Shown here piece by piece: positions 36,697-64,000 of a stretch of DNA of 64,000 nt. Origin of the DNA: Amphiura filiformis (taxonomy: Eukaryota; Echinodermata; Ophiuroidea; Amphilepidida; Amphiuridae). Below the pieces are notes generated by a model. It saw only the letters and a list, made by a program, of their open reading frames with translations, was not told the DNA's origin and did no database searches. Location: contig NC_092637.1 of assembly GCF_039555335.1 (NCBI RefSeq), positions 7,584,038 to 7,648,037 on the forward strand. Direction: 5' to 3'. Every line of letters starts with the position of its first letter. Within the stretch, counting starts at the first letter, position 1. The position numbers and the translations under genes are program-made.

Positions 36697-36768
36697 ATAA
36701 CTTACCATGGGTGATTTCAAATTAAAGGGTCTGGTTGCAGCTCCATTCACACCTTTTCATGAAAATGG
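36697..36768 (+). CDS. NPL: NPL exon 1 (first coding)
   Basis: Acceptor TTTCCGTTACAG, then 10 nt of leader and ATG at 36707 in a good context (TTACCATGG). It encodes [20 protein letters not shown], the first beta strand of the barrel. Donor GG/GTAAGT at 36769. Because an acceptor precedes it, a further untranslated 5' exon should exist upstream. Confidence 0.92.
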
Positions 36769-39700
36769 GTAAGTATTCCAATATAAGTATATTCTAGTTC
36801 TAGCCACAGAATTAGAGAAGGAGAACCGGGACTCCCTATACCGCCACATACAATTACAATCGCATACATACCGTCAGCTATAGGGAGAAAATTGGGGGTA
36901 TTCGGTTCCTTGCCGATGGTGCGCGGCGATGAACGAAAAGAATTTGGTGTGTCATCTGAAGCGTCTTGGTACTTGTGTGCAGGTCGCATCAAGTGCGCCT
37001 CTCAAATGCGTCCATCATCCATGCCGTGCTTGCATGACAACAAATTCCTCGAGCGCATTCCGAGGGAAACAGAATACCCCCAATTTTTGTGCCATGCCTG
37101 TATCAAGATTGTGGTCGAGTCCTGGTTCTCTTTCTCTATTTCTGTGGTTCTAGCTTATCTACATATACTTGATTACAATGCCAGAATCAATTAATTATAC
37201 ATGTAGTCTGTATCATCTCAAGTTGAGAGTAACACTATGTTGGATTTCACAGTGGCAGATTCAAATCACTACTTTTAAGTGGGCGTTGCCAGTGGACTAC
37301 GTACCCCCTATATTCCAGAAATATACAGTGCTAATTTTTTTTGGATTAAAAGAAATCATCCTGTTTTGCCAAATGAAACATATCTAAATTCTGTAATCCT
37401 TTATTCAGTTCTAACTGGTAATGATTGATAGTCACATCTTAATTTTTGGTCAATTTTTGGAAATAAGGGCCAAAACATGCCGTTTCTAGGGTGTTTTTCA
37501 TATCCTGTGACAATCAAGCTGAAAGGCTTGTACAATTAAGACTAATTTCTAGTTATGCATTCTAATTTTAATCAAAAATAACACAAAATATTTACATTTT
37601 AAGCTAATTCTAGCCTATTGCTCAAGAATTTGAATGCTTAGACTTGTGCCAAGTCTAAGAATTTTGTGACTACAATATCAACATGCAAACCATCATGTAT
37701 GTTAATGTTAACTCTAATTATTTTCTTCACCAACAGGGATTTGAACCTGACACCTATTGAGCCTTATATGAATTTATTATTGGCTGATGGAGTCAAGAGT
37801 GTTTTTAGTAAGTACTTTTGCCCCGGGGTGTACTTAGTACAAATGACCATACGGGGACGTGCCGCTAATATGGGTAGCATTTTTGGCCTTTTGGTATATC
37901 AATGACCCCTCTTTCTAAGCCAATTTTGGTATATGAATGGGTCCTTTTTTGAAAATTTGTTAAATTTTCTCGAAAAATAGCCCAATTTTTCCTCAATCTA
38001 GCCAAAATTTCGAAATTTTCCAAAACAAATTGAGAAAATTTGTAAAAACTAAGACAATTTGGGTTAAATTTGGCCGAAAATTTTGACTTTTGGTATATCA
38101 ATGGGTCCAAATTTCTTGAAAAATTGGTATATTTTTGAGTCCACTTTCAAATCCTACCAAAATCAAACTTGAGTACCTCCCCGCACTTTTGCTATAAATG
38201 GTACCCATCTGTTTTGGTGTTGTTTGTTTGTTTGTTTGTTTTTTTGATTGGCTGCTCTTTTCCACAACTTGAAACAGAGATAAGAATGAGATACTCCACT
38301 CCGTACAAACGGCCTATATACCGATGTTGAGGACATCAATTCACAAACGTCGCCACCAGCCAGGTCTTACTACAAACGTGTAATGACAAGAGCCCATAGA
38401 GTCATTTAGGCTCTGTAGAAGAGACAGTGCCAAATTTGAAGCCAGGGACACTTTAAATTTATTAAGAGCTAAACAGTACCAACTGACCAGCTGGGGAACT
38501 TTGAATGGATCCAAAAGATTCAAGAAGTGTACACAACCAAGGAAAATAAATGTTAAAAACTGTTTAATTTATGAAAATTACCTGTAAAATCAATGTTCAA
38601 TTTCAATTTTGTTTCTGATCGCACCACAACTCTGAAATTGTAATGCTAAATTGAGCTAATGTAGCCTGTATTCCAACTAAACACAGCCTGAATACTTCCA
38701 AGGTCAGAATACCCAAAATTGGTGTTCAATTTATAAAATATAAAATAAAACAATGTGTACCACATTATATTTCCAACTCCCCATAGGACATGAGACAAAT
38801 CTATTTATTTTTTTGGCTTAAAGGCATATATTGGAATGTCATCTTTCCATGGATAAGATCTGACACCAGGCCAGCCCATGGCCAGAGGGTAACATGAGTA
38901 GGTTTGTTTCACCTTGAAGGCAAGGATAGTCTTGCAAATATGGGCTAACTTTCCCCTAGGCCATCCAATATGCCATGAATTAGTAGGACTACAACTGGTA
39001 TCTACTGGTCACTTTATACTCCTATTTCCACATCTGTTAATTTTATATGGGCCTTTAAGAAATTGAGCGACAATCAAAGATATTAGACTGAAGGAGTACA
39101 GACTCAGAAAAGTCCCTTGTATGAATCCAGACTATGGTAAATCTGCCATATTATATTGTCACACTTGAAAACCAAAATAGAGTACTTCTTGCATTTATAG
39201 GCTAAAGTTTAAACAAAACAATCTGTTATCTCTTTTCTTCCTTTCATAGTTTGTGGCACAACAGGAGAAGGCCCTAGCATGACTTTACCTGAACGGAAAA
39301 GTCTTGCAGAAAAATGGGTGCAAGTAGGAAAAGATAAGTGAGTACCGTAAAAAATAACATAATTACATATTACACAGAATCCTAGTCAGCCTACATATAT
39401 AATAACCATCACAACCAGGATCAGAACTATGGCATTGCAGCTAGGGACTTGAACTCTTGCCATTAAGCACAAGACTCTGCACACCTACTGATTGAACGAA
39501 CTAAACTGCTAAATTTGGGTGCATGGCAGCAGTGCAAGATTCAGCTACCAACCTAGCCGCAGCCGGACTTAGCAAGCATGTGAGCAGCTAAGGCATTCAA
39601 CCGACTTTGCGCTGACGCAACCTCTCTGGTATTATAGCAACAGAGCCGAAAAGTAGTGCTACTTATAACAACCAATATTCACAAAAGTGACAAATTGGTC

Positions 39701-42700
39701 GATTCCGATTCTGATCTGATCTCGGCAATCTATTTTTAGTAACACGGCTATCTGAAAAATTACCACAAATCACTATCAGTACAAAAATGTAGTGCCACTA
39801 GTGCATACAATTTCACGAAGTTTATGTATGATAGGTGGTTTCTTGCTTATTATATAGATGTGAGCTATTGGCTTAAAGTTGTTTAAGACAGAATGTACAT
39901 TATTTCTGAATTTTCTGCTGTATTTTAGTGTGGTTTGTATGTATAACTGAGGTTTCAGAGATGGGTAAGGATATAGCAGCTAATAACATTTCCGCTGATC
40001 CTGATTCATTAAGGCCGATTCAACTTTCTGTTCTGGATTGGTCAACACAAACTGAGCCCAAACTCAAACAATGTGAAATGAAATAACAGTATAACATCCT
40101 TTTATAAGTTTAAACAAATTTGTTGTATGAAATTATACTGTAAGGCAATAGAAACAAATTAGTTTGATCTTTCAATGCTTGATCTATCCTTATTATTTAT
40201 GAAATCAATTAATCCACTATTGTTAATTGTGATAAAATAGTAATCATGATATTGACCAAAGTAAATTTAGCATTAGTTCTGATTAATGAGTTGATAGTTC
40301 ATTAATAAAAAGCATCGAAGCAGCATCGACGGTCGGTTCAAAGATCAAACTAATTTGTGCCTAACATGTATGTTTTATTGTTTGTGTAGGCTTGATGCTG
40401 TAGTTGTACATGTTGGCTGTGGTAATCTCAGAGAAACAATAGAATTGGTAAGTTTTAGAAACATTAAGGTTAAGATTGAGGTTTCATCTAGCAAACCAGT
40501 ATAATATATTTAATTATAAAAATGTCTTTTGTGTGTGTTCAGAACATACTTGTGAACATGCATGTACTTGTGAACAACAGTCTCTTACACAATTTGAAAT
40601 TACTTGATACTCTAGGTTGGTAAACATGAGTAAGGTTTGATCATTCCCTGGAGAAGTCCTTTTCATAGAAATCTTTCTTTATTGAGGGTAAAACAGCTTC
40701 AGTGACAAGCATTGCTTTCCAAGCAGGCCCTCATGTACTCAAGTACATTATATACAAACATCATAAATATTTAAAATTTACACAAGATGTACACATTAAA
40801 AAACAAAATGAGATCAAGTAACTAGAAATACAACAAAAAGTTATGTTATGTGATAATAATGAAATTGATTGAAAATTACAATGTACACAAGGATAAACTT
40901 TTTAAAGAGAATCTTGGTAAACTTTTGATTTGAATTGGCCTATTGAAATATTCTCCAACTCTGCTCTAACTACCAGAGATAAATTATTTCATGCGTAGGC
41001 TGCTTTCACATGAAATATACGTAGCCCTGAATTTGATTTAAATTTTGGCACAATCAATGTATTTGTACTATGATTTCTAGTTAGGTTGGTATGGATATCA
41101 TGTACAAAGTTAAATTGAGAAGATAAGTATGATGGACTTAATTTCCTGAAGCATTTAAAAATGAGCAGTAATAATTGATTATGCCATCTATTATCTAGTT
41201 TAAGGTTTGACACTATTTTAAAGTGTTGCGATTTGGTAGTTCACAGCATCTTCCGAATGGTAGTCAGCTTTGGCAAAAATCGCATTGCTCATTTCATAGC
41301 GAGTGTGTAGAAGAAACCAAATATCACAGATATACTTTTGTAGGCCCTGTGGTTCTTGAGTTATGTTGTAGGAGGGCTGAAACACCTGCAACACTTACAT
41401 AAACGTACATAGCTCATTAACAACGATAAATCAAGCAAGGTTTGAAAGTATATGGTTTGTAGAATGGACTTTTGCAAAACATCAAAGTGTTATTTTTCAA
41501 TAATATATTGATTTACACAATGAAAATTAATATTTTTTGGCTGCTTCGACCAACAGTACCTTGTCTACCCTTAAGCCACTGAAGTGCATCATATCATCTA
41601 TTGGCATTCTAATATCTGCAGAAAGTATAGTTCTGGTCAAATTATTATGAAGTACCTATAATTTGTTGTGAAATTCAACTGAAATTCAACTTCCATAGTC
41701 AAGGTGAGAGGGCTGAGCTTTCGGAACTCTAGCGAGTGCCATCTTCAGAGCACAGACCATCTTTGATTCTTGCACATTTCTTAATTCGTATGATCAATAA
41801 AGTCAGTAGTAACCAATTTACAACCAATTATGGCACAACAAATTGATCATGGGTGCAATTTCAATGAACTTTGGGTTCTATCCCGATTGTAGACAAAATA
41901 TCACCATCTGCTGAAAACGCTAGCTAGTCCACCTAGCGAAAATGTTCCAGTTGAGCAAAATATAGTGTAGTGTTGAAGTTTAACTCTTTAATTGTGACAT
42001 TCTATTTGTTCCCGTGTAGGCAAAACATGCTAAGGAGATAGGAGCCTCCGCCATTGCATCTATACCATCAGTGTTTTTCAAACCTAAAACTATAGGTAAG
42101 TTGTTGTGGATATAGGTTTTGCCAGACAGTGCCAGACATGAGCTAATGGTATGTCCAAGAGGTAATGTGACTATTTTCCCCGGAGGGGCCACTGCCATTA
42201 GAAGGTGGACACCATGCTCGTGTACAAAAACGCGTAAAAAGGGTATTTTTTAACGGACGGGCGATGTACGCGCGTACAGTGCAAAGGGTGTCAAAATTGC
42301 TAAAATCGGGGAAAAAGGGTATACTTTTACAACAACTTGGATGCGTGTAAACGGTATATAAAGCATTTATATTGATGTGTACAGTTAGATATCTTAACCA
42401 TACTACTAATAAATAATATGCATGATAGTGATAGTTGACAACTTTTCACAGTTTCATTTACTTAATTATTTTGATGATGTGAGCAAATGTGTTGTTAAAG
42501 GCCAGTAGGGCCTATATAATTGCTAAGAACATCTTATGGCTTTTTTTCAGACTTCGGATTTGAAAATACTTGTTTAGGGTGTGGAAAACATGACAAAATA
42601 CTTGTTTAGGGTATTCTGAGATCGAAGGATAATTACTTGTTTAGGGTCCATTTTGAAAGTCCATACATGAGCATGGTGTCCACCTTGTAATGGCAGTGGC

Positions 42701-45700
42701 CCCCGGGCTATTTTCTTCCTGCCACGATGTATTTCCTCATTTTAAAATGTAGATGCTATTTGTAATTGTGTTCTCCCTTGCATGAGACAGGTTTATCAGA
42801 CCTCAGTTGTTCTTGGGGTTAAATTGGCAGTATCAAGGGCCTGATTAACAAAGATATATGATCGATCTTACGATTCATTGAATAGGAAAAAACACTGGAT
42901 TTTTGTTTGACAAAACCAAGTGAATTTTACTCATCAGGTATGACTGATATGGTCAACTGTTTTGAGTGGTTTCCGGTGTTCCATAGCCTCTTTTGTAGAC
43001 TTCAATGGTGGATCATAAACATGACTTCAGAGTCATGTTAATCATTTAATAGGGGATTAAATGTGGTAAATCAATTATAAGATTGATCGTAAGATGTGAA
43101 ATACATAGGTCTTTTTGAAATATGAAACTGAAATGAAAGAAGCAATTTTCCAAGAAAATTAGACCCATTTTAATTTAACACAATTTTGCTCATTTTTACA
43201 GAAAATTTACCAAATATATTGAAATTTGGGGTCCAGTAGGTGAAAGTTCTTTTTTGTAAAAATTTCACGAAATTGTGTTAAATTTGACAAAAAATCTGGG
43301 CCTCGAGTATGAATATGGGTCTAATTTTCTTGGAAAAGTAGTATAAATATCACATTCCTACCCAAACAAAACCAGGATTCTATGATATCCTATGTAAGAA
43401 TTTTCCCACATTATCTTCTATAGTCCATTTGACTTCCTCAAGAGCGCCTTCATGTGACACAAACACACACAATCAAATGCATGGCATCTGTAGCGTACGA
43501 TGCAGCGTGAAGTGAATGTGCCCTACAGATACGCCGTCTTTGATCACGCATGTATCACACGCAGACCATGGGCATTAGCCAGTATTGCAACTTGAATAGC
43601 CCAGTAAAATGACCAGCTCAACATTTGACCTGTTCAGCATACTATTTGCTGTTGGGTTGGTGTCAGAGTACATCACATCCCTGGTAAAATGTGCATGTTA
43701 TATTTTCAATTCTGTCTATAGATGAGTTGACTTGTGACGTCATTGCCTGGCAGTATGCGCATGCATCATCACAATTTCCATTGTTTTTTGCCTGGCAGTA
43801 TGCGGGCGCATCATATTTTGTTCAGGACCGTGCTTTGAAAACTCCTGCCACATCACAAGAAGGCTATTGAACAGTGTAGTTGATGTATGTAGTTCGCTCA
43901 GGCATATCAATATGCCAGTCCCTTGCCTTTGTTGATAAACATTGCACTTTGCTATTTTTTAAATGTTTCGCTTGTTTTTAAATTTGTGATTCTGAGCTTC
44001 CTGACATTGAACAAAAGGATAAATTCCTTACAATAGGAATATATTTGTGCATTTTTATTTTCGGGATGGCTGTTTTAAAACTAAAAAGTGCAAAAATAAA
44101 TGTACCACTTTTAGAATTTTCATTTCTACAGATTTGTTGGTTGACTACATGAGGGAGATAAGCTTAGCAGCACCAGACTTGCCATTATATTACTATCACA
44201 TTCCTGGACTAACTGGAACTGATTGTAAGTATCACAAAACTATAAAAGGATCAAAATTTAATTGTTTTCATTTTTGACCAAACTTTGTGATATTTTAAGG
44301 TATAAAAATAGTACAAGGTCCTAATCAAAAAAGGAGTAACTGGTGTTGTGTCTTTAAACTTGATCAAAGATGGCATAATACTGTTGCGAACCCTTATTTT
44401 GGAGTATCACAATGATTATTAATAATATAGGCCTACAGAAACACGACAACTAAGAGCAAGACATTGATGATTCACTTAAGGTTTTATTATAACGTATATG
44501 ATCATGAACATGCTGCGAATACTTGAATAAACAATCGACTCGAATAAACAAAAGACTCTGAACTGAATGATTACTCTTACCAAGCACGTGGGCTTATATA
44601 TGGCTCATTAGCATACGATCAAAACTTTGTAGGGGTCAAACTGCAGATTTCAGGGAGGTCAACCACACATTTTTTTGGAGTAACCCTCGGGCGATATCAC
44701 ACCTATATTTTCTGGGCCCAGATCTGTGAGTTTGTACTCGCCAAACTATTTGTAGGATTGCACGCCCTGGATCTGAATCTGTGGATGATTTGTTCTCGCC
44801 AAACTATTTGTAGGATTGCACGCCCTGGATCTGAATCTGTGGATGATTTGTTCGCCAAACTATTTGTCGGAGTGCACGTCCTTGGATCTGAATGTGTGGT
44901 TGATTTGTTTACCCTGAATATTAGCTACTCTTGTTTTAGTGTCATAAATTAACGATATAAGACAAATCTTATATAGGCCATAATCGTGCATAATTATTAT
45001 CAAACATGATCTACAGGATCATAACACTGCCCTCTCCTTAGATTGGACAATGTCCCCATTGTTGACAAGAGTAAAAGTTTTCTTAGCGAATTGTTTAACA
45101 ACCAAAAGTGTAAAGTCAACAAAAAAAAAAAATATATATAGGAACATGCTAATTGCTATGGGGAAATTATTTCGATAGGCCCTATGCGTGTTATTGCGCT
45201 CACTGAAAATTGAATCTAACAGCATACTGAACATCAAATTCCTGGTCGCTAATTACTTTCATAGCTTAACCAAAAAAACACCAAACAATTCTGTATGTTC
45301 AAACATATCCAAATTGGTGCATATAAAAAGAATAACTCGTCGTCTATCTCAATTTATATCAATATCATAATTATCCGATCATCAACAGATCAACAAGCCA
45401 TTAATAAACTGCACGCTATAAACAAACGTCATCACACAACCAAAACGCCTTTCCGAGTTACAATCAAAATATTAAAGACTATTAACGAACAATGATCCAA
45501 ATCTCGCAAACACAAAGCGCACTATCGAAAAATATCCCCAAGCAATATTACTACTCAGAACTAAAACTACTGAACACGTTAGAATATAACTTATATAAGA
45601 GTTAGTAGTATAACCTATATAAAAGGCGTCGTTCCAGATATCAACAAAACATAGGCAAGGTCCTCAGAATTTTAAGCAATGATTTTTTTTTCTTTCAATA

Positions 45701-54700: not shown

Positions 54701-57700
54701 CCTTTGGATCTTTCATCCCAACCGACATAACCATCTGGGGATCATTTAATCCCTTTATGAAATATCTCAATCCAATGGTTTCACGGGTTGTCTCATCGGC
54801 TGTGGGGTAGCCCTTCAAAACTAGCCTCCTAACATCCGCGGTGTAGTCTGTTAGTGTTTCCTTGGGGCCCATCTTCTTGGCCTCTAACTGTGCCGAAAAT
54901 AAGTGGGCTGATCGCCTGTCACCAAATCTGTTTTCCAGAGCTTTCTCAAGCAATTCTGCTGAATTAAGAATGTCCTCATCAAGCTCTGAAAAAGCATATG
55001 TCGCGCGTCCCTCTTAAACTGCTGATGAGTCTAAATATGCGTCATCTTCTGTCCAACAGCATGCAGCTGCTAAACCTCTGAAGGGCTTGATAAAACTTTC
55101 CCAGGGCTGTTTTCCATCAAATAATCCCTGACGTGGAAGAGGGACAGCTAGATTTTTTCGCTGTTCCTTACTCTGGCTATTTGTGGAGCTAGATCTGTTG
55201 ACGAGTCCTGATGGACTGTCCGAAGAGCTACGCTGTCCATACGCCTCTGATCTTGTTTCACTTTTTGCAGCCTGTACCGGTGGTGAAGACATGTTAATTG
55301 ACTTTTCTCCCATGTCCCGCGAGTACCGCAATTCGTGCATTTCTTTTTCATGTATCTTGCTCTTTCTCGTTCTTCTTCCACTCTATATTCCGCACTCTCA
55401 GCTCTTTTATTCGCCTTTTCAAGTTCAGCAATAATCCTTCCTTCGCGTTCCTTTATAATTCTTTCTCGCTCTTCAGCTTCTACTAAACCTTGCCTCATCA
55501 TTTGAAGATCCTGTGTAACTCTGGTAGCATTGTCTTTTGATTCAAGTTCTTTCTTACTGGCTTCAACAAGGCGAGTTTCCATTGCAGAAATTATTTCTTG
55601 AAACTCCATTTTCAACTGATTACGCACGCGAGAAATTCGATCTTCCTCAGTTACTCGTGCTGTCTCTTCTGCTCTCGATAGTTCATCCAATGCATGTTCC
55701 GCTTTTCCGCTCTTGTCGCTGTTTCATTTAATTCAGTTCTCACCATTTCTAATTGTTCCTTTAACAAATCCATATCCTCCGTGATTGAAGAAGGAGACCC
55801 TGCTCGTGCTTGAGAACTTCTTCTTCTCCTACTGCTTTTAGGCATCTTGTCGTCCGAGTGGTTGCATTAATAATTATGAAAACGTGTTGAAGTCCAAAAT
55901 CCCGTCGCTGCCACCAGTGTTGCGAACCCTTATTTTGGAGTATCACAATGATTATTAATAATATAGGCCTACAGAAACACGACAACTAAGAGCAAGACAT
56001 TGATGATTCACTTAAGGTTTTATTATAACGTATATGATCATGAACATGCTGCGAATACTTGAATAAACAATCGACTCGAATAAACAAAAGACTCTGAACT
56101 GAATGATTACTCTTACCAAGCACGTGGCTTATATATGGCTCATTAGCATACGATCAAAACTTTGTAGGGGTCAAACTGCAGATTTCAGGGAGGTCAACCA
56201 CACATTTTTTTGGAGTACCCCTCGGGCGATATCACACCTATATTTTCTGGGCCCAGATCTGTGAGTTTGTACTCGCCAAACTATTTGTAGGATCGCACGT
56301 CCTGGGTCTGAATCTGTGGATGATTTGTTCTCGCCAAACTATTTGTAGGATTGCACGTCCTTGGATCTGAATCTGTGGATGATTTGTTCGCCAAACTATT
56401 TGTCGGAGTGCACGTCCTTGGATCTGAATCTGTGGTTGATTTGTTTACCCTGAATATTAGCTACTCTTGTTTTAGTGTCATAAATTAACGATATAAGACA
56501 AATCTTATATAGGCCATAATCGTGCATAATTATTATCAAACATGATCTACAGGATCATAACAATACTCTATTAATGACTGTTTTCAAATGTTTAAAGAAT
56601 GAATATCCATCATACTTATCTTCTCAATTTGATTTTGTTCATGATAACCATAATCATATAACTAGAAATCATACTTCTAATACATTGATTGTACCAAAAT
56701 TTAAATCAAATTCAGGTCAACGTACGTTTCACGTCAGGGCAGCCTATGCATGGAATTCTTTGCCACCGACAGTAAGAGCTCAGATGGAAAATATGACTTT
56801 AGGCCAATTTCAATCAAAAATTAAAGAAATTTAGGCCTGTCTTTATCTATATTTTATTCATTTACTTGCTTGATTTTTGTATATAAATATAATTATTGTA
56901 TTTCTGTATTTTGAATCATGGTATTTATAATTATCTTGTAGTTGATGATATCATTATACTTATTTGTAATATATTGTAAATACATTGTAAATACTGTATG
57001 ATACTTTGTAAATATTGTGTATCGTAATATATTTTGTTGCTATATAACATGTATCAATGAGGGCCTGCTTGAAAAGCAGTGCTTGTCACTGAAGCAGTAT
57101 AACCCTCAATAAAGAAAGAATAAATAATAATAATAATAGACATAGGCTAAATATACAGTTTCATTGATTTGGAAATTTAAGGCAAGTTGTTTTAGGCTTA
57201 CGAAATAAATGTTCATTTTGTCAGAAATCTGCTGTGCTACTGTGTCTCATCTCAAGTTGAGAATAAGTTAATAACGCCATGTTGGATTTTGTAGGTGCAC
57301 TAACCTAATCCCACGGCACGTATGCACACACATAGAAGGGCTGCCATCACAACCGTGAACGCACTGAAGCAAGTCTGCCACAACAAAAATCAACATGACT
57401 GTATTCTCAACTTGAGACGAGACACAGTATAGTTGGATTCCTTGCATCATATCCTTTCTGAAAATGTATACCTTTATTACAAACTAGCACACAAGATCAA
57501 ATTAATGATGCTTTTATAATATTAATATTTTATGGTATTAAAATCATTATAATATTAATATTTTATGGTATTAAAATCGTTATTCTTAATATATCAATAT
57601 ACAGGGGAAAGAAGAATTACGCATCTTACACTAGCACAATAAACATAAACTTACAAATGGAAACATGACATGCATAGGCAGATATACCAGTATTTTCGCA

Positions 57701-60700
57701 TTTTGTCGCTATTGGACAAGCTAATACGTATCAAAACAAGCTTTGCAATGATATGCTGCACTGCGCATCTCTCTGTTGCTTGTTTGCAAGTTACATGTAC
57801 TAAATTATCTGTCAAAGTGTTGGAAAATCTTTTGTTTTTTATTGTTCTTTGAATGGTCACCTTTATTCATATAATACCATATTTCACCCTGATGTGACGT
57901 CTTTGAGGAAACTTTTTTGCACACAGATCTATGCATCAGTGTCTTTAAAAGTGTGTGTATGCTAGCGCTTTGAGCGAACACTTAAGCGATTTAAAGCTGC
58001 AATGTAATACTCATTGACATCATTGCCACATCAGGATGAAAAATGATATTAGGCCTAATTGTTATTTCTGCCACACAGTCCCAATGTATGACTTCATGGA
58101 GGTCGCCAGTACCAGGGTTCCAAATTTGGCAGGCTTCAAATTTTCACACATGAACACCGAGGACATCATGCTATGCTTGCACCAGTATGGAGTGAAATAC
58201 CAGTTTTTAGTTGGAACTGATTCTGTATGTTTTAATTCTGCCTTTCAAAAATACCCCAAGCTCATCACTGTTATAAACTGCTCAAATAAAGAAAGTCCGC
58301 AGTCATGTAACCCGTCCTACACCAAAACCTGATCTTGTTATGAAATTTTGATTGATACGGTTGTGTGCAGAATCTTGTTAGCTCTAATTTGATACCAAAT
58401 TTGATACCAAACACTCAAAAGTGACAAAGACTGATACCAGTTTATGGCATTTGGTGCATTTTCAAAAGTTGCAAATCAAAACGATAACGCGGTCGAAATT
58501 GCTTAAGCGTGGCAATGTGGTCAAGCTTGCTTGCCCACGATGAACCCATGTCGACTATCCCAAGTGCGCGCTTTATTCAATTGTTAATTTAAAACGCATG
58601 GATTGCTACAGTGCTTTGCTGATGAATACTAGGGCTCGATGCGATCGATATGACCTAGCGGTTGTTTCGGGCTTTATCAATGGTCGCTAGCTGTGCCATT
58701 CAATTTATAGCTCATGCGTGGTCCATTTTTAATTTGCAACTTTTGAAAATGCACCAAATTTCATATACTGGTCTCAATCTCTCTGAATTTAGAGTTTTTG
58801 GTGGCAAATTTGGTATCAAGTTGGAGCTAACAAGATTCTGCACACGACTTTATCAATTAAATGTTCATAACACGATCAGATTTTGGTGTAGGACGGGTTA
58901 CATGACTGCGGACTTTCTTTATTTGAGCAGTTTATATGGTTATTCAAACACAATGATCGTCCCTGTCACAGCTGAGACAAATATTCATCTCAGGTCATAG
59001 CTCTATAAAAAGCCGATCATTTTATATCACACTTTTAATACTGTATAACGTGAATGATACTTTTGTAGCATTAAAATGTTGTGTTTTGGAGAGAACCCAT
59101 TATTCTGTGACATGAAATTTGTTCATTTCGTAAAAGGCATATAGCAATAAAAATATTTGTGTTCATGAAAATTTCGCAAACCAAATACGATTAAAATAAT
59201 TGTAATTTAATTCTGCCACACAGTCCCAATGTATGACTTCATGGAGGTTGCCTCTACCAGGGTTCCGAATTTGGCAGGCATCAAATTCTCTCACGTGGAG
59301 ACTGTGGACTTGATGAGGTGTTTACACCAATTTGGAGAAAAATACCAGTTTTTACTAGGAACTGATTCTGTATGTCTTAAATTTGTGCAGGTTTAAGCTT
59401 TATTCTTACTGGGTTTTTTTTGTCTTTATTTATTTTCTTTTTGCACATTTTCTTCCACCAGTCTTTCCATTTAATATATTATGGCACTGTTTGTCAGGGG
59501 GTCAAACCCCCACCCTTTTCATTTTCCCACTTTTTAGCCAGACACCCTTTTGATCAGGAATTGAACCCCCACCCTTTTGTGACCAAATCTTACAACATTG
59601 TCGTTATCAAATTCAGAAGACTGAATAGCGCAAATTTCATAGTCATTTCCTGGTTCATTATCGCTATCTGCTTAATCAGTCATTGTCCATTCCAGAGTCC
59701 AAATTTGAATCCTTATCTAGCAAACATTCATTATTTTCATCTTCATCTGAAACATTTGCAACATAATTGGCACAATTACTGAATCACTGCAACTGCAATC
59801 ATATCTTACGAAAAATACGATCTTCGCCATTGGATTGTAAAGCATGACTTTGTGTTCTGACAAATGGGCACAAAATATCTGAATCGATGTTGAGCTGTCT
59901 TTACTGCCGAATGATGTTATTTTCAATCAAATGATTCTCAGATATCAATGTGATTTTCAGTGTTTTATATCATCACAAAGTCTGATCAAAGATCATTAAA
60001 ATCATAAATGGGACGATACTCTTAGGGTGGTGTCTCTCAAAATTCAACTTGAAATGGCAAATCTGGTTAACTTCTTTAGCTTTTGATGCTTTTTGTTTAG
60101 AAAAACTAACAGCAAATATGGTAACAGGTGTGATTCTAATTAACTGCTAACAATATGGGCTATTCCATTTGAAGAGGGATGTTTTCAAATGGAATTGGTT
60201 AGGTTAATTATTTTGAAACCCATACTCCCCCTGTTTATTACCTATAGATATCTTCCACAGTAGTGAGTATTTCAAATAGAAGTGACCCAATTGTCTATTC
60301 TATTTAAAACCCATACTCCCTTTGTGGAAGACTTAAATAGCTAAATGTTGCACAGGGTGTGGATTTCAAGTGGAATTCGCTGGAGTAGTGCACATTAGTA
60401 ACCATTGGTTACTACTCCAAGCCTGGGCTCATACACCTGTTCCGAATTTTGATATGCCATAGGCTTTGTGTTGTGATCATTTCGATCAGTGGTTTGTAAC
60501 AAAGAAAGTGTGATCGAGTCATATTCTAAGGACAGCGAATAGCCCAATTTTTTGCTTTGCTCTCACTGCACAGTTCCTATGGATGATTTCTTGGGAGCAG
60601 CCAAGGGGAGAGTCCCAAGCTTACGAGGGATCAAATTTGGGGACCCCAATCTTATCAATTTTGGTCACGCTAGTGAGAGATTTGGCCATGAATACCAAAT

Positions 60701-63700
60701 GTGCTTTAGCAAAGATGAGGTAAGCATGCTCCGTGACCACCAATCAGTCAGTCAATCAATCAACATATCAATCAATAGCATGGTCTGTGACTACCAATCA
60801 GTCAATCAATCAACATAGCAATCAATCAATCAATCAATCAATCATCATAAATGGTAATGCCTTATCCTTTACACCCAAATAATGTGTTTTTAATGTGTTA
60901 AAGGCAGTAAAAATGTGTCAATAAAGGGCAAGGTGTAGCAGATGGGGTCTCCCCATCAGTTCAAAACATCATCAATCCGAACTCCCATCAGTCTGAAAAT
61001 CCATTAGGGTTAGGGTTAATTTTGGACTGACTGGGTGTCCCCATTTAAACGTTATATTACTGCCATTTTTTGGTTGTAAAGGATGAGGCAGTAACTCTTA
61101 AAGAGAAGTGTTACTCTTTGCCTAAAGATCAAGGTAAAACAAATACGCGTTTCTACCGCTCAAGTGACGGCGCATATTGCGGGGAAATTGTATGTGCAAA
61201 CTCACATACATGTATTCATGCTTTTTATATTACATTCCATACAAATTCAGAGCACATTATTTCAAATAAAGTACGTTGACAAATCACAGTGTGTGATTTT
61301 CAGTAATGGGCTGTGGGGGTAATAGAATTATCAAGATTTCCAGGAGTCAAAGAATGTACTTAGTCTTAAAATTACAAGCTCCAAGTTTCCCAAGTTCTCC
61401 AGGATGGGGGTGGAGAAGTACTTGACTAGTGAGTTGCACATTCATATATACCTTGGGCTGTTCTAGTTGAAATCCATATACCCCCTATGGAAGACATAAT
61501 CTTAATCTCCCACACAGGGAGTGTTGAGAGATTTAAGTTATGTCTTCCATAGGGTGTATGTATTTTAACTGGAATAAACCTTTGTGTCATTTAGAGTTTG
61601 GTAGGGATGTCTCTGCATGTTTTAAATTGCGTAGCTTTCAACGTGCACAGTTCTCGCAGTCGCAACAATATACACTTGTGTGTAAAAGCTGCACAATCAG
61701 AATGCTGTCTCGCATACAGAGGTGCATTGTAACATCACTACCAAATTCGAGGTGATACAAGATATAGGTACAACAGGCTATTCCAGTTGGAATCCATACA
61801 CCCCTATGGAAGACATGACCTTAATCTCCCATACAGGGAGTGTAGATTTCAAAAGGAGCCACCCATTCAGGTAACACCATTTGAAATATGCACTCCTGTG
61901 TAGAAGATTAAGGTGTATGGATTTTAGGCAGAATAGGCTAATGCAGCTGCAGAAAGCTGAATCTTGGTCAGTGATCAAGTTACCCCGGAAGTTACCACGA
62001 TAGGAATTGCTTTATTCCGTGTTGGAGGTAACTTGATTTCTGACCAAGATTCTGCTCGCTGCACTGCAGCTAGACCACAGTACACATTGATGCACATAAT
62101 CCGCTTGCCGTTGCACATTGCCATATCACCACAGACAGAATACAAGGCACTACTGTTATAACCCTAACCCTAAACTCTTACACTAATCCTAACCTTAACC
62201 CTAAACTCTTACCCTAATCCTAACCCTAAACCCTAACCCTAATTTGAGAGTGTATTCTGCAATTCCGCCAATATCAAGCTCATCAAGCTCATCATACATT
62301 TTACATTTGGGAGCACTTCATGCATTGTATTTTTGTTTTTGTAAAAATCAAAATAAATAATCATCATAAGTAATGATAATATCTTCTTTCTACTGTTTCT
62401 GATTGAGCTTAAAAACTGCTGTATATTTCTATCGGGGGTACTCAGTACAAATGACCATAAGGGACGTGCCACAAACATAGATAATGGTAACTTTTTCGGA
62501 CTTTCGGTATGTCAGTGAACACCTTTTCAAGGCCTATTTTTGAAATGGATGGTTCCTTTTTTCAAATTTTTTTTTCTGGAAAATTGTCAAATTTTACCTC
62601 ACTGTAGCCAATTCTTTTTTTTAAATTTCTTTAAAATGTTAGGAACAAGTTGTAAAAAGCTAACACAAGTTGTGTTAAATTTTTGACTTTTGATATATTG
62701 TTGGGTCGGTATTTCTCAGCGGCACACCCGTACCCAAATCAAACTTGAGTACCCCTGGGATTTCTTTACATGAAAAATTGGATCTTGAATTTTGGTACTC
62801 CTAAGAAATGCAAACATGTGCATTTTTAGTCTTAAAATCCCATAACACTACCATAAAACTTTAAGCATTCAATAAATTTGTGGTTGTTTATTTTTTTTAA
62901 ATATATAGTTACTTCTGCCATCGATGACTTTTGGGAGTGAAGCATTTGTTGGAAGGTAAGTTTATATTCTGTGTTCTTATTAAAGGGGCATTTTGTGATC
63001 CACAGCATCATCCCCCCACTTTTCTTTTAAAAAGTTGAGATTTTTATTTTAAAAAAAAGAAGAAAAGTGCAGTGATTTATAGTGCGCTACACACAGGCAC
63101 AATGTTGATCCACAAGCCTCAGCACAATTTACAACTGGACACCTCTGGCTACTTAATGTTTCTTGCACAATTATTGTGAAATTTGAATTACGTTCTGGTC
63201 AGGCCCGTAGCCAGGATTAATTTGAGGAGGGTGCGGGACCTCAAAAAGTGGACCTTTTTTGGACCCAACCCCCCTAACCCTCCTACAAAAACCTCGTTAT
63301 TGGGCCACTTTATCACAAAAATTGGACCTTTTTAGCACTTTTGGCAAATTTGGGTGGCACCCCCCGCACCCCCTTGGCTACGGGCCTGGTTCTGGTACAC
63401 CAGAAGTCCATGATGGTCACGCACTAATATAATGTGAAGTGTGTTTTACTTTTTTTTGGGAATAGCAGAAGAGCCAAAAGGGGATTGTCAAAGGGGCACA
63501 TACCCAATGGCGTAACTAGGGGGGTGGGCAACGTGCCCCGGGCGCCAAATTCAGCATCGATTCTGCGCCCCTCCAAGCGATGAAATTTCAGCACAAAATC
63601 AATTGAAAGAACATTTTAAGACCGATATTCAAATTATAGTAACCAAAATTAATTAGTGGTAGGCCTTTACTTCTCCGCACGCAATTGTTTCAAGAATGGG

Positions 63701-64000
63701 GGGCATTATGTATCCTTAGCCCTGGGTGCCACAACCCCTAGCTACTGCCCGCGTCTAAGATATTCGATATTCTCCGGTGGGGGTAGGGGCGCCAATTTTG
63801 TTTCTTGACCCGGGCGCTACCTACCCTAGTTACGCCACTACACATACCTGTATTATGGCCCAGCTAATGGGGTTGGAGCATGCTTAGATAACCAAAGTGT
63901 TACAATTCTTCATTATTTGACTGTATGATAACGTCACCTTATTTGTGTGTAATTTACAGTACTTACAATTTCTGTGGTAAGCCATGCAACAGAGTCATAG
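36697..64000 (+). CDS. NPL: N-acetylneuraminate lyase (sialic acid aldolase), 3' end outside window
   Basis: Cytosolic class I aldolase of the DHDPS/NAL family; it cleaves N-acetylneuraminate to N-acetylmannosamine and pyruvate. Nine exon positions are visible, one of them in three versions. All junctions agree: cumulative lengths 62, 133, 221, 279, 355, 448, 594 and 641 nt give phases 2, 2/1, and so on without a break. Conserved elements: [10 protein letters not shown] strand (exon 1), CGTTGEGPS carboxylate-binding loop (exon 3), YYYHIP with the catalytic Tyr (exon 6), the KF lysine motif (exon 7), and GSTYN (exons 8/9). About 227 of roughly 320 expected residues are inside the window. Introns are packed with MITEs and hold a 12-kb retrotransposon. 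No frameshift or stop occurs in any exon. Confidence 0.94.
36769..37736 (+). other. NPL intron 1
   Basis: Contains a foldback at about 36812-37145 whose outer ends GAGAACCGGGACTCC and GAGTCCTGGTTCTC pair, and whose inner TACCCCCAATTTT-type blocks also pair. Open frames at 36.75-37.2 kb are products of it. Confidence 0.5.
37737..37807 (+). CDS. NPL: NPL exon 2
   Basis: 71 nt, acceptor TTCTTCACCAACAG, donor TTTTTA/GTAAGT. Encodes [20 protein letters not shown] followed by SVF, the first helix and second strand of the barrel. Enters in phase 2, leaves in phase 1. Confidence 0.93.
37808..39249 (+). other. NPL intron 2 with dispersed element
   Basis: About 37815-38190 is a repeat with inverted ends (GGGGTGTACTTAGTAC and AACTTGAGTACCTCCCC) and several TTTGGTATATCAATG blocks. 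A related copy is at 62433-62760. (GTTT)n lies near 38220. The rest is unremarkable. Confidence 0.5.
39250..39337 (+). CDS. NPL: NPL exon 3 (GTTGE loop)
   Basis: 88 nt between CTTTCATAG and GATAA/GTGAGT. Carries [20 protein letters not shown], including the Thr-Thr pair that binds the pyruvate carboxylate in this family, then KWVQVGKDK. Leaves in phase 2. Confidence 0.94.
39338..40389 (+). other. NPL intron 3
   Basis: AT-rich. A faint inverted pair, GACAGAATGTACATTATTTC against TGCCTAACATGTATG-like sequence, is not convincing. No gene or clear element seen. Confidence 0.45.
40390..40447 (+). CDS. NPL: NPL exon 4
   Basis: 58 nt between TTTGTGTAG and GAATTG/GTAAGT. Encodes [19 protein letters not shown], the barrel strand and helix matching IIHVGALSLKES of the human enzyme. 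Leaves in phase 0. Confidence 0.92.
40448..42019 (+). other. NPL intron 4
   Basis: Contains an antisense CR1-like LINE 3' fragment (40668-41235). The remaining 0.8 kb has no supported feature. Confidence 0.5.
40668..41235 (-). mobile_element. CR1-like LINE 3' fragment
   Basis: On the minus strand it encodes the end of a reverse transcriptase ORF ([44 protein letters not shown]), then a 3' region closing with CCCTCAATAAAGAAAGAT. It is the same family as the LINE split by the LTR element at 44.3/56.6 kb and is 5'-truncated. Confidence 0.8.
42020..42095 (+). CDS. NPL: NPL exon 5
   Basis: 76 nt between TTCCCGTGTAG and ACTATAG/GTAAGT. Encodes [20 protein letters not shown] then KPKTI, matching the human AAEIGADGIAVIAPFFLKP strand-loop. 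Leaves in phase 1. Confidence 0.93.
42185..42705. mobile_element. MITE with about 40-bp terminal inverted repeats
   Basis: GGGGCCACTGCCATTAGAAG and GTGGACACCATGCTC at the left are mirrored by GAGCATGGTGTCCAC and CTTGTAATGGCAGTGGCCCC at the right. No coding capacity. Confidence 0.7.
43146..43346. repeat. Foldback element
   Basis: TTTTCCAAGAAAATTAGACC with AATTTAACACAATTTTG pairs with AATTGTGTTAAATTTG and GGTCTAATTTTCTTGGAAAA. Confidence 0.6.
44132..44224 (+). CDS. NPL: NPL exon 6 (catalytic tyrosine)
   Basis: 93 nt between TTTCTACAG and CTGATT/GTAAGT. Encodes [18 protein letters not shown] then [13 protein letters not shown]. The YYYHIP motif supplies the Tyr that acts in proton transfer in this family (Tyr137 in the E. 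coli enzyme). Leaves in phase 1, the entry phase of all three exon 7 versions. Confidence 0.94.
44290..44381 (+). mobile_element. CR1-like LINE, left part, interrupted by the LTR element
   Basis: Ends [10 protein letters not shown] at the insertion point. The frame continues as [19 protein letters not shown] after the LTR element at 56567. The left boundary is approximate. Confidence 0.6.
44382..45026 (-). repeat. 3' LTR of the gypsy-type element
   Basis: 645 bp, ends TGTTGCGAACCC and GGATCATAACA in plus orientation. It contains about three tandem copies of a unit of about 60 bp with CGCCAAACTATTTGT and GATCTGAATCTGTGGATGAT. Confidence 0.93.
45027..45039 (-). other. Polypurine tract
   Basis: The minus strand reads AAGGAGAGGGCAG immediately before the 3' LTR, the expected place for plus-strand priming. 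Confidence 0.6.
46131..46260. repeat. Telomere-like module inside the LTR element
   Basis: TTAGGG and TTAGGATTAGGG units interspersed with GTTAGCTGAGG, bounded by ACACGAAAT on both sides and by ATTACGTGAAG on the right. It is the inverted relative of the module at 2025-2118, so it moved into the retrotransposon. Confidence 0.6.
47495..47685. repeat. Tandem repeat in the LTR element
   Basis: Units containing AAGTTCAAATAAGTATAAAT and AACGTCC, with TTGAGTTCCTCAGCGAATAA in the longer units. About four copies, 30 to 62 bp long. Confidence 0.7.
48060..49049 (-). CDS. Intact zinc-finger/coiled-coil ORF in env position
   Basis: 329 codons, uninterrupted, downstream of integrase on the same strand. 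Residues 4-29 fit a C2H2 finger (C4, C9, H24, H29). Residues 39-61 form a second (C39, C42, H55, H61). About 120-255 is Pro/Ser/Thr-rich and low-complexity. [10 protein letters not shown] near 260 looks like a nuclear localisation signal. About 265-325 ([19 protein letters not shown] and following) is a predicted coiled coil. There is no signal peptide, membrane segment or furin-type site, so it is not an envelope. It probably acts in the nucleus as a DNA- or RNA-binding accessory protein; that function is inference. Confidence 0.75.
   Translation of the reverse strand: MFECPHQGCFGKVIAKDKVTVFRHYFADHCNWKYSEYMCCYCRDGFSHRYRLLQHTKTKGHIKHIEDANVGDIEKFNINLWRSRQLPLDLQSGNLTQELYDHIAATRVITTDDLDATELGDMPRSPTDTILHDEEQTSRSSPQGYAPPSTSAVGPPPSQDPGSSTTVAVSVPNFGDQLTIFPSNAATLSGTMPSGVLSTGTVTSPALTFPYNMYNASSSSASGMPSTTATAPPAPAAQSFQWTQLPRPDDIPTPPKKKKMQPPQEQSLAEEVRRLADAVATMSQRLQSVDEKLNNLQQSQTDQVHNVKEYCHTLFGHLQQDLKNAWENA
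49240..49580. repeat. Tandem repeat between integrase and the zinc-finger ORF
   Basis: Three diverged units of about 140-150 bp, each with CATGTCCTTGGACCGGTAAA, GAGAGATAAACTA and TTCAGGTGTGAAGTTAACTT. They lie just upstream of the zinc-finger ORF and could carry its promoter, but nothing shows this directly. Confidence 0.7.
49886..50716 (-). pseudogene. Integrase C-terminal half (frameshifted from the N-half)
   Basis: Begins just after the second catalytic Asp. Carries [15 protein letters not shown] with the third catalytic residue (Glu), then a GPY/F module ([13 protein letters not shown] ... HHDRLKIF) and a basic tail. It is out of frame with the upstream half, so integrase is broken. Confidence 0.85.
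50635..51933 (-). pseudogene. RNase H-integrase linker and integrase N-terminal half
   Basis: Opens with [10 protein letters not shown], the cysteine-rich end of the RNase H region, then an acidic stretch and a strongly hydrophobic segment ([20 protein letters not shown], about residues 76-95), unusual at this place. The integrase part has the HHCC finger (HDAKTSAH ... CVKCGARKR), TDILGPLPL with Asp 1 and IHSDQG with Asp 2; the frame is lost right after. Confidence 0.85.
52192..52383 (-). pseudogene. RNase H fragment
   Basis: Shows [19 protein letters not shown] with the first catalytic Asp, and [14 protein letters not shown], both typical of Ty3/gypsy RNase H. Frameshifts lie on either side. 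Confidence 0.8.
52559..53476 (-). pseudogene. Reverse transcriptase, frameshifted
   Basis: 52559-52897 carries [14 protein letters not shown] and the catalytic [12 protein letters not shown], then [17 protein letters not shown]. The N-terminal part lies in other frames between 52900 and 53476 ([18 protein letters not shown]). At least two frame changes interrupt the domain. Confidence 0.85.
53464..54180 (-). pseudogene. Aspartic protease region of pol
   Basis: About 239 codons without a break. [13 protein letters not shown] holds the catalytic DSGA (residues 15-18) and AILGFDFM the second conserved block. Likely translated after a gag-pol frame change. It is the least damaged pol domain, but a part of a broken polyprotein. 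Confidence 0.8.
54285..54953 (-). pseudogene. Gag capsid C-half and zinc knuckle
   Basis: Ty3-type capsid helices ([28 protein letters not shown]), then a CCHC knuckle [14 protein letters not shown] near the C-terminus. It is separated from the N-terminal gag by a frameshift near 55 kb. Confidence 0.85.
55014..55845 (-). pseudogene. Gag N-terminal region, coiled coil, frameshifted
   Basis: Three overlapping frames (55651-55845, 55148-55690, 55014-55340) together make a basic start ([16 protein letters not shown]), a long Glu/Arg-rich coiled coil, a CTNCGTRG motif and the start of capsid ([19 protein letters not shown]). Two frame changes and a stop separate them. Confidence 0.75.
55899..55916 (-). 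other. Primer binding site, tRNA-Leu-like
   Basis: The minus strand reads TGGTGGCAGCGACGGGAT one base after the 5' LTR. It closely resembles the complement of a tRNA-Leu 3' end (TGGTGGCAGCG then GGGATT) as I recall that tRNA. Confidence 0.6.
55918..56562 (-). repeat. 5' LTR of the gypsy-type element
   Basis: 645 bp, about ten differences by eye from the other LTR (for example CACGTGGCTT against CACGTGGGCTT, and GTACCCCTCG against GTAACCCTCG). Confidence 0.93.
56563..57138 (+). mobile_element. CR1-like LINE, right part with 3' tail
   Basis: Continues the ORF interrupted at 44381: [52 protein letters not shown], stop at 56834. The 3' region ends CCCTCAATAAAGAAAGAATA and (TAA)n. Confidence 0.85.
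57238..57432. repeat. Foldback element upstream of exon 7a
   Basis: ACTGTGTCTCATCTCAAGTTGAGAATA-type left arm pairs with TATTCTCAACTTGAGACGAGACACAGT-type right arm. A fragment of the left arm is at about 37205 in intron 1. Confidence 0.6.
58079..58224 (+). CDS. NPL: NPL exon 7a, alternative version 1
   Basis: 146 nt between TTTCTGCCACACAG and GATTCT/GTATGT. Read from phase 1 it gives [49 protein letters not shown] and exits in phase 0. The Lys in AGFKFS aligns with the Schiff-base lysine. The final motif is GTDS where human and E. coli enzymes have GxDE. It shares its first 19 codons, at the protein level, with 7b. Confidence 0.88.
58277..58933. repeat. Large foldback between exons 7a and 7b
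   Basis: Left arm (about 58277-58480: AACTGCTCAAATAAAGAAAG, CATGTAACCCGTCCTACACC, TTTTCAAAAGTTGCAAAT) and right arm (about 58728-58933) are inverted, about 200 bp each. It starts 52 bp after exon 7a; the 112-codon frame inside is an artefact. Confidence 0.75.
59224..59369 (+). CDS. NPL: NPL exon 7b, alternative version 2
   Basis: 146 nt, with the same acceptor sequence TTCTGCCACACAG as 7a and the same donor GATTCT/GTATGT. It reads [49 protein letters not shown]. Nine residues differ from 7a, all from the residue before the catalytic Lys onward. No stop or frame damage, so it is not an obvious relic. Confidence 0.86.
60160..60385. repeat. GGCTATTCC foldback MITE family, copy
   Basis: GGGCTATTCCATTTGAAGAG on the left; TGTGGATTTCAAGTGGAATTC on the right. 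It lies between exons 7b and 7c. Confidence 0.55.
60574..60719 (+). CDS. NPL: NPL exon 7c, alternative version 3
   Basis: 146 nt between CTCTCACTGCACAG and GATGAG/GTAAGC. It reads [57 protein letters not shown] resembles the human DLLDFGQC helix, and the DE pair at the end matches the GxDE motif of characterised lyases, so this is probably the ancestral version. The Gly of GxDE is Ser here. Confidence 0.87.
60850..61330. repeat. CCCATTATT dispersed repeat, diverged copy with insertion
   Basis: Starts AATGGTAATGCCTTATCCTT and ends TGGGGGTAATAGAATT, matching the family at 14573 and 23519. The hairpin centre is interrupted by sequence with inverted CCCCATCAGT blocks and a TTAGGGTTAGGGTTAA stretch (61004-61019). 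Confidence 0.6.
61450..61575. repeat. GGCTATTCC foldback MITE family, short copy
   Basis: GGGCTGTTCTAGTTGAAATC, with CCCCCTATGGAAGACATAAT inverted as TTATGTCTTCCATAGGGTGT. The central half is deleted. Confidence 0.6.
61770..61937. repeat. GGCTATTCC foldback MITE family, copy
   Basis: GGCTATTCCAGTTGGAATCC on the left, GGATTTTAGGCAGAATAG on the right, with the usual internal GGGAGTGTAGATTTC. Confidence 0.6.
61941..62072. repeat. Foldback element
   Basis: GCAGCTGCAGAAAGCTGAAT with CTTGGTCAGTGATCAAGTTACC pairs with GGTAACTTGATTTCTGACCAAG and ATTCTGCTCGCTGCACTGCAGC. Confidence 0.6.
62160..62243. repeat. Interstitial telomere-like tract
   Basis: CCCTAA and CCTAAT units with periodic AAACTCTTA inserts, about 84 bp. 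Flanks do not show the ACACGAAAT arms of the other modules. Confidence 0.65.
62433..62760. repeat. Dispersed GGGGTACTCAGTAC element
   Basis: Related to 37815-38190: GTACAAATGACCATA and GGGACGTGCC near the left, CAAACTTGAGTACCCCTG at the right end as inverted complement of the start. Confidence 0.6.
62909..62955 (+). CDS. NPL: NPL exon 8
   Basis: 47 nt between TTTAAATATATAG and GGAAG/GTAAGT. Entered in phase 0 it reads [15 protein letters not shown] and splits the Ser codon of GSTYN with the next exon. It follows directly on GTDS (7a, 7b) or SKDE (7c), matching GVDEQLLSALV of the human enzyme. Confidence 0.92.
62983..63420. repeat. TTAAAGG foldback MITE family, copy split by an hAT MITE
   Basis: Starts TTAAAGGGGCATTTTGTGAT. 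Its central TTCTGGTACACCAGAA palindrome is split at 63199/63389 by the hAT element. Right part decayed. Confidence 0.6.
63200..63388. mobile_element. hAT MITE, 189 bp, perfect 8-bp duplication
   Basis: Termini CAGGCCCGTAGCCA and TGGCTACGGGCCTG. Octamer GTTCTGGT at 63192-63199 and 63389-63396. Confidence 0.88.
63505..63840. mobile_element. hAT MITE, 336 bp, perfect 8-bp duplication
   Basis: Termini CAATGGCGTAACTAGGG and CCCTAGTTACGCCACTA. Octamer CACATACC at 63497-63504 and 63841-63848. Confidence 0.87.
63960..64000 (+). CDS. NPL: NPL exon 9, cut by window edge
   Basis: Acceptor TGTAATTTACAG. Joined to exon 8 it completes [15 protein letters not shown], matching GSTYNYLGKKTNQML of the human enzyme. 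The remaining C-terminal helices lie beyond the window. Confidence 0.92.

Follow-up and report, generated by a model that had tools for sequence, protein, structure and literature searches.

Can a single animal gene offer alternative active sites for a sialic acid lyase by exchanging one exon? The question is raised by a stretch of 64,000 nt from the brittle star Amphiura filiformis (assembly GCF_039555335.1, contig NC_092637.1, positions 7,584,038 to 7,648,037 of the forward strand), which we call the window and number from its first letter. The plus strand of the window carries, from 36707 up to its last letter, an N-acetylneuraminate lyase (NPL) gene with exons 1–6, three versions of exon 7, exon 8 and the start of exon 9. 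An N-acetylneuraminate lyase splits sialic acid into an acylmannosamine and pyruvate. An earlier inspection of the letters (the sequence-only reading) had proposed that this is one NPL gene carrying three homologous, frame-locked alternatives of its catalytic exon. Gene model, frame logic and homology all support that proposal.

Over its 227 aa, the conceptual protein containing exon 7b shows 100% identity with P0001 (305 aa), annotated as 'N-acetylneuraminate lyase-like isoform X1 [Amphiura filiformis]'. P0001 carries PF00701 and hence belongs to the DapA/NanA family. It is matched by 113 distinct PDB sequences at E up to 1e-10, the best being 6arh, an N-acetylneuraminate lyase. Version 7b is the sole one tied to an annotated protein. 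At full length, the 7b isoform is 97.0% identical to the 7a isoform and 90.2% identical to the 7c isoform; with these identities, it would fit that all three sit in the 90% cluster of P0001, which holds 3 member sequences from 1 contig. Residues are numbered as in the E. coli enzyme (NAL, or NanA); the key positions agree with the papers cited below. The parts of the gene are as follows.

36707..36768, plus strand: exon 1, coding part, constant; begins with the ATG at 36707, follows the in-frame splice model and equals P0001 residues 1–21
37737..37807, plus strand: exon 2, constant; in-frame splice model
39250..39337, plus strand: exon 3, constant; its GTTGEG motif holds the equivalents of NanA Ser47-Thr48 (splice model, alignment)
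40390..40447, plus strand: exon 4, constant; in-frame splice model
42020..42095, plus strand: exon 5, constant; in-frame splice model
44132..44224, plus strand: exon 6, constant; holds the Tyr equivalent to NanA Tyr137 and ends in phase 1 (splice model, alignment)
58079..58224, plus strand: exon 7a, alternative active-site exon, 146 nt; GTDS loop (Ser at NanA 192), weak donor
59224..59369, plus strand: exon 7b, alternative active-site exon, 146 nt, present in isoform X1; GTDS loop, weak donor
60574..60719, plus strand: exon 7c, diverged alternative active-site exon, 146 nt; SKDE loop (192 Glu, 167 Gly, 189 Ser), strong donor
62909..62955, plus strand: exon 8, constant; in frame only with exactly one exon 7 (frame analysis)
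63960..64000, plus strand: exon 9, constant, cut by the window end; a Ser equivalent to NanA Ser208 lies across the exon 8/9 junction (splice model, alignment)

Only one version of exon 7 per mRNA keeps the frame

The layout described in the sequence-only reading was recovered in full: three exons of 146 nt at these coordinates, each with AG/GT borders, entered in phase 1 and left in phase 0, without stops, and separated by introns of 999 and 1204 nt. Adjacent homologous exons of equal length and phase are what is expected of mutually exclusive exons. A further expectation is that mRNAs with no copy, or with more than one, are unproductive. We joined exon 6 to exon 8 with 0, 2 or 3 copies of exon 7, five combinations in all, and every one led to a frameshift and a stop, so that only a single copy per mRNA is in frame, as had been claimed. 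Without any exon 7 the first stop falls at codon 160; with 7a+7b, or with all three copies, at codon 228; and with 7a+7c or 7b+7c, at codon 253. Such mRNAs would probably be lost through nonsense-mediated decay, as judged from exons up to 9, those past it lying outside the window.

Introns of 999 and 1204 nt rule out steric exclusion, a point on which the sequence-only reading was right. Incompatibility between U2- and U12-type splice sites was also considered and ruled out: all borders are AG/GT, with no U12-type donor among them. These comparisons used the generally known U12-type donor consensus, U1 end and donor consensus. The donors had all been called good, and for 7c this holds, with a U1 duplex of -9.6 kcal/mol; the other seven donors in the window range from -4.9 to -10.1 kcal/mol. 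It does not hold for 7a and 7b, which share the donor TCT/GTATGT (slash at the exon border), with very weak U1 pairing (-1.1 kcal/mol) and 5/9 consensus bases. Because of this difference, a natural guess is that 7c is the default and that 7a and 7b are regulated.

Homology, constraint and age of the copies

Exons 7a and 7b are 82.9% identical in nucleotides, and 7c is 47.9% identical to 7a and 49.3% to 7b. In tblastn searches of the 64-kb window, the 7a and 7b versions matched each other at E 4e-25, and 7c was found with the 7b peptide at E 4e-8 and with the 7a peptide at E 3e-6. These E values rule out chance similarity of the copies. All other matches were weak (E 0.24 to 0.98; near 12.8, 26.3 and 28.8 kb) and chance-like. 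The window showed neither an additional copy of exon 7 nor a repeat of any other exon. Since exon 7 alone is repeated there, a whole-gene duplication is ruled out. A haplotype or assembly copy is ruled out as well, since 7a and 7b are just 83% alike and their flanks align over very short stretches. Specifically, the intron flanks of 7a and 7b could be aligned for some 17 nt on the upstream side and some 16 nt on the downstream side; a second comparison gave 17 nt upstream and nothing adjoining downstream. Flanks this short are as expected of an old duplication. Silent changes in 7c are saturated relative to both 7a and 7b. The duplication that separated the 7c and 7a/b types probably came first, and the one that gave 7a and 7b later.

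Exons 7a and 7b showed little sign of decay. By the Nei–Gojobori method (NG86), nonsynonymous (dN) and synonymous (dS) divergence between 7a and 7b are 0.129 and 0.557, for a dN/dS of 0.23. In simulations that let one copy drift through 27 mutations, nine or fewer amino acid changes were reached in 7/5000 runs starting from 7a and 14/5000 starting from 7b. That one or two of the versions might be functionless, dying copies is an idea that can draw on the annotated protein being tied to 7b alone and on the weak donors of 7a and 7b. It is at odds with these simulations, with the open frame and intact splice dinucleotides of every copy, and with the fact that 7c, though far diverged, retains the equivalents of Gly163, Lys165, Asp191 and Glu192; we consider it highly improbable. 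For 7c, an open frame was found in 870/20000 random shuffles.

Weak donors are usual in regulated exons. In another view, 7a and 7b are poison exons that, when included beside 7c, put the message out of frame and reduce its expression through nonsense-mediated decay. The frameshift on double inclusion is in keeping with such a role, as are the weak donors of 7a and 7b. A poison exon, however, needs no constraint at the protein level, yet 7a and 7b show a dN/dS of 0.23 and keep their catalytic residues, and 7b is part of an annotated protein. This role seems very unlikely.

Exon 7 holds the catalytic lysine and much of the sugar-tail pocket

The structure of P0001 was modelled from an alignment of 55/194 proteins, with a predicted local distance difference test score (pLDDT) of 95.8 and a predicted template modelling score (pTM) of 0.93. 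In this model, the exon 7 residues (150–198) form a helix (152–162), a strand (166–171), a helix (176–186), a strand (191–194) and the start of the next helix. As modelled, exon 7 is the helix5-strand6-helix6-strand7 quarter of the triosephosphate isomerase (TIM) barrel, including the Schiff-base lysine (residue 170, NanA 165).

Active-site residues were compared with those of 193 other proteins, drawn from the best 120 of 1373 and the best 120 of 506 matches, two overlapping sets. The Schiff-base Lys is present in 193/193 of these relatives and in 7a, 7b and 7c, and all three versions also retain the equivalents of Gly163 and Asp191. Outside exon 7, the equivalents of NanA 47, 48, 137 and 208 are intact. 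All three conceptual isoforms therefore have the Schiff-base Lys, Tyr137 and Thr/Ser47-Thr48. At position 192, Glu occurs in 192/193 relatives (the exception, P0004 of Acanthaster, has Gly) and in 7c, and Ser in 7a and 7b. Position 167 is Thr in 183/193 and Ser in 8/193 relatives, Ser in 7a and 7b, and Gly in 7c. Position 189 is Gly in 187/193 relatives and in 7a and 7b, and Ser in 7c. None of the three versions is canonical at every compared active-site position. Departures are not confined to exon 7 either, as the constant part of P0001 deviates at 11/76 near-invariant positions. Among the relatives, P0004 (Acanthaster planci NPL-like isoform X2; 4 cluster members, one contig) is non-canonical at the same positions, with Val at 167, Ser at 189, Glu at 191 and Gly at 192.

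Several of these positions have known roles in E. coli NAL. Glu192 is placed for hydrogen bonds to O8/O9 of N-acetylneuraminic acid (Neu5Ac) and has Tyr190 on one side and the neighbouring subunit's Tyr172 on the other (PMC3014015). The same paper reports significant Neu5Ac activity at position 192 with Glu and Gln alone, and small residues there, Ser included, as being without activity on a dipropylamide analogue. Asp191, Glu192 and Ser208 make contacts with the terminal triol. Control of stereochemistry has been assigned to residue 167 (PMC2431125). A large share of the sugar-tail pocket is thus encoded by the exchanged exon, and it is there that the versions differ. The Glu that would contact O8/O9 of Neu5Ac is present in 7c and absent from 7a and 7b.

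The sequence-only reading had concluded that one gene yields three lyases. What stands is that one gene holds three frame-locked alternatives; three ordinary lyases are doubtful. They are not established, because 7a and 7b have Ser where the E. coli enzyme needs Glu or Gln for Neu5Ac. Judging by residues, three ordinary lyases are no more probable than a change of specificity or a loss of the usual lyase activity, and we would class the 7a and 7b forms as NPL-family proteins rather than as established Neu5Ac lyases. If all three were ordinary lyases of the same activity, the duplication would just give each form its own regulation by tissue or stage. The sharp contrast in donor strength between 7a/7b and 7c is in line with this, but the changes hit the near-invariant active-site positions Glu192, Thr167 and Gly189, which makes it quite unlikely.

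Alternatively, 7c might provide the working lyase, and 7a and 7b catalytically dead or weak subunits that tune activity in tetramers, where one wall of the pocket is supplied by the neighbour. The replacement of Glu192 by Ser in 7a and 7b would be explained in this way, given the narrow choice of residues that supports Neu5Ac activity in E. coli. So would position 172, which lines the neighbour's pocket (PMC3014015) and differs in all versions (Glu in 7a, Val in 7b, Ile in 7c). Yet 7a and 7b retain the equivalents of Lys165, Asp191 and Gly189, 7c itself departs from the canonical residues at 167 and 189, and it is 7b that occurs in the annotated isoform X1. We regard this as possible, albeit doubtful.

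Relationships of the exon 7 region

A tree of the 49-residue exon 7 region was made from 31 sequences chosen from 198 aligned rows. Versions 7a and 7b grouped well (0.98), and 7a, 7b and 7c grouped weakly (0.73). Of seven trees compared, the approximately unbiased (AU) test rejected none, though placement of 7a+7b inside the animal sequences was excluded by resampling-of-estimated-log-likelihoods (RELL) and expected-likelihood (c-ELW) weights. The constant part of the protein grouped with six other echinoderm sequences (0.935). In mean score, the exon 7 region of all three versions is closer to 183 other, mostly bacterial, proteins than to 11 animal ones; these lists were drawn by similarity to the proteins themselves, and no conclusion is drawn from the comparison. 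A database search with P0001 residues 148–202 returned only P0001, from a single candidate, and so says little on uniqueness.

Candidate RNA pairing behind each version

We scanned the introns for a docking site that could pair with one selector site behind each exon 7 version. The pairing scan returned the following set.

61290..61319, plus strand: candidate docking site in intron 7c-8, with a potential partner site behind every version of exon 7
58251..58280, plus strand: candidate selector behind 7a; duplex of -25.0 kcal/mol with 61290-61319
59566..59595, plus strand: candidate selector behind 7b; duplex of -24.4 kcal/mol with 61290-61319
60977..61006, plus strand: candidate selector behind 7c; duplex of -24.7 kcal/mol with 61290-61319

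Equally good sets were found in 0/24 block-shuffled, 0/108 dinucleotide-shuffled and 2/108 natural segment sets, the last drawn with 58-63 kb and the satellite region left out. Region borders were set by the analyst, two architectures were tried, and the first null consisted of plain block shuffles. In the second architecture, with the docking site in intron 6, the best set was no outlier (21/24 shuffled sets were equally good). Choice of exon 7 by docking-selector pairing is thus a candidate mechanism, to be taken as a lead only.

Exon 7 as a possible switch of sugar specificity

We favor, with moderate confidence, the explanation that the tandem-duplicated exon 7 of NPL is a set of mutually exclusive exons that switch the sugar-tail pocket, giving isoforms that prefer different sialic acids. 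The exon for a quarter of the TIM barrel would have been duplicated in tandem within the A. filiformis gene. Splicing would include one version at a time, and mRNAs with 0, 2 or 3 copies would be lost to frameshift and probably to nonsense-mediated decay. Version 7c, with its strong donor, may be the default, and 7a and 7b, with very weak donors, would depend on a splicing factor or on RNA pairing for their use. The isoforms would have the pyruvate/Schiff-base chemistry in common, but each would read the glycerol tail of the sugar with a different pocket, hence preferring different sialic acids.

Several results weigh against this explanation. According to PMC3014015, E. coli NAL E192S is without significant activity on Neu5Ac or the test analogue, so the 7a and 7b forms may be inactive. 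As the AU test rejects none of the seven trees, a common origin of 7a/b and 7c within the gene cannot be demonstrated from the 49-residue region. The open frames of 7a and 7b are weak evidence of function, as the frame stayed open in 1825/5000 and 1839/5000 drift simulations. A codon bootstrap of the statement that both copies are constrained (dN < dS/2) failed in 123/2000 replicates, which leaves constraint on both 7a and 7b likely, not certain. A point against 7c as the default, finally, is that the annotated isoform X1 contains 7b instead of the exon with the strong donor.

As for which sugars might be involved, PMC7616688 describes N-glycolylneuraminic acid (NeuGc) as frequently methylated in the brittle star Ophiactis savignyi, and not so in one sea cucumber. 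We hypothesize that the 7a and 7b forms accept methylated sialic acids of this kind. A broader version of the pocket-switch explanation is offered as speculation. Splicing would swap a barrel quarter, catalytic lysine included, to fit decorated sialic acids. Lacking the Glu192 carboxylate, 7a and 7b would admit sialic acids of echinoderms whose tails are modified, by 8-O-methylation, 8-O-sulfation or in other ways, and 7c, via Gly167/Ser189, would serve another substrate or stereochemistry. One docking site and three selectors would choose the version, and mixed tetramers would build pockets from two versions. That all of these parts hold together is rather unlikely.

Repeats and mobile elements in the window

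Intron 6 contains a long terminal repeat (LTR) retrotransposon on the minus strand (44382-56562), with open reading frames (ORFs) for CCHC, aspartic protease and integrase, which lengthens the intron by about 12 kb. Its LTRs are about 645 nt long, 98.8% identical and have TG..CA ends; ATAC flanks the element on both sides, a likely target duplication. With LTRs 98.8% identical, the element looks much younger than the 7a/7b duplication. Downstream of the integrase, the same element has a 334-aa ORF (48060-49064, minus strand), for which Pfam returned nothing (E up to 0.001) and whose start resembles a zinc-finger motif by eye. The intron between 7a and 7b holds an element (58272-58936) like a miniature inverted-repeat transposable element (MITE), with 210-nt terminal inverted repeats that are 89% complementary; its RNA is predicted to form a hairpin of about -353 kcal/mol. 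Farther upstream, a 122-bp tandem repeat forms two arrays (14967-17397 and 20903-22577) flanking a block of non-LTR retrotransposon ORFs with a reverse transcriptase (17395-20578).

Comparison with known systems

Besides the systems compared below, PKM and ketohexokinase are further cases of enzymes whose exclusive exons change the substrate pocket. The sequence-only reading knew of no report of mutually exclusive exons at this position in NPL, and none was found in the open-licence literature, among the matches listed. If the pocket-switch explanation is true, the evolution of lyase specificity can be tested on three pockets within a single constant scaffold, and the gene may be connected with the variety of modified sialic acids that echinoderms have. 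The gene is also a three-way case in which to study what enforces exclusive splicing when neither steric block nor spliceosome incompatibility is at work.

In COQ-2 of nematodes, annelids and molluscs, exons 6a/6e are mutually exclusive and switch substrate, with support from RNA-seq and exon deletion (PMC7434440). As proposed for NPL, homologous exons, one per mRNA, remodel the enzyme core. COQ-2, however, has two versions, whereas NPL has three, known by computation alone, in a class I aldolase whose Schiff-base lysine lies inside the swapped exon. In ACSL1/ACSL6, a mutually exclusive exon pair likewise swaps a substrate-gate motif, in the fatty-acid gate domain (PMC1543647), but this is a short motif in an unrelated enzyme, again with two versions. 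The second A. filiformis NPL gene (P0003) belongs to the same family as the three-version gene and keeps the Asp-Glu loop; it differs in having Cys at 167 and Ala at 189, and its cluster has a single member sequence.

The directed-evolution variants E192X and T167G of E. coli NanA involve the same positions, 192 and 167, that differ among the natural exon versions. Those are laboratory mutants of one protein, among which E192S was not useful and T167G was studied with E192N (PMC3014015, PMC2431125). One animal gene appears to offer, by splicing, natural alternatives at NanA 192/167, residues engineered to alter sugar choice. Exclusive exons that switch a pocket are already known; what is unusual here is that there are three versions, that the catalytic lysine lies inside the module, and that the changes fall at positions used in directed evolution.

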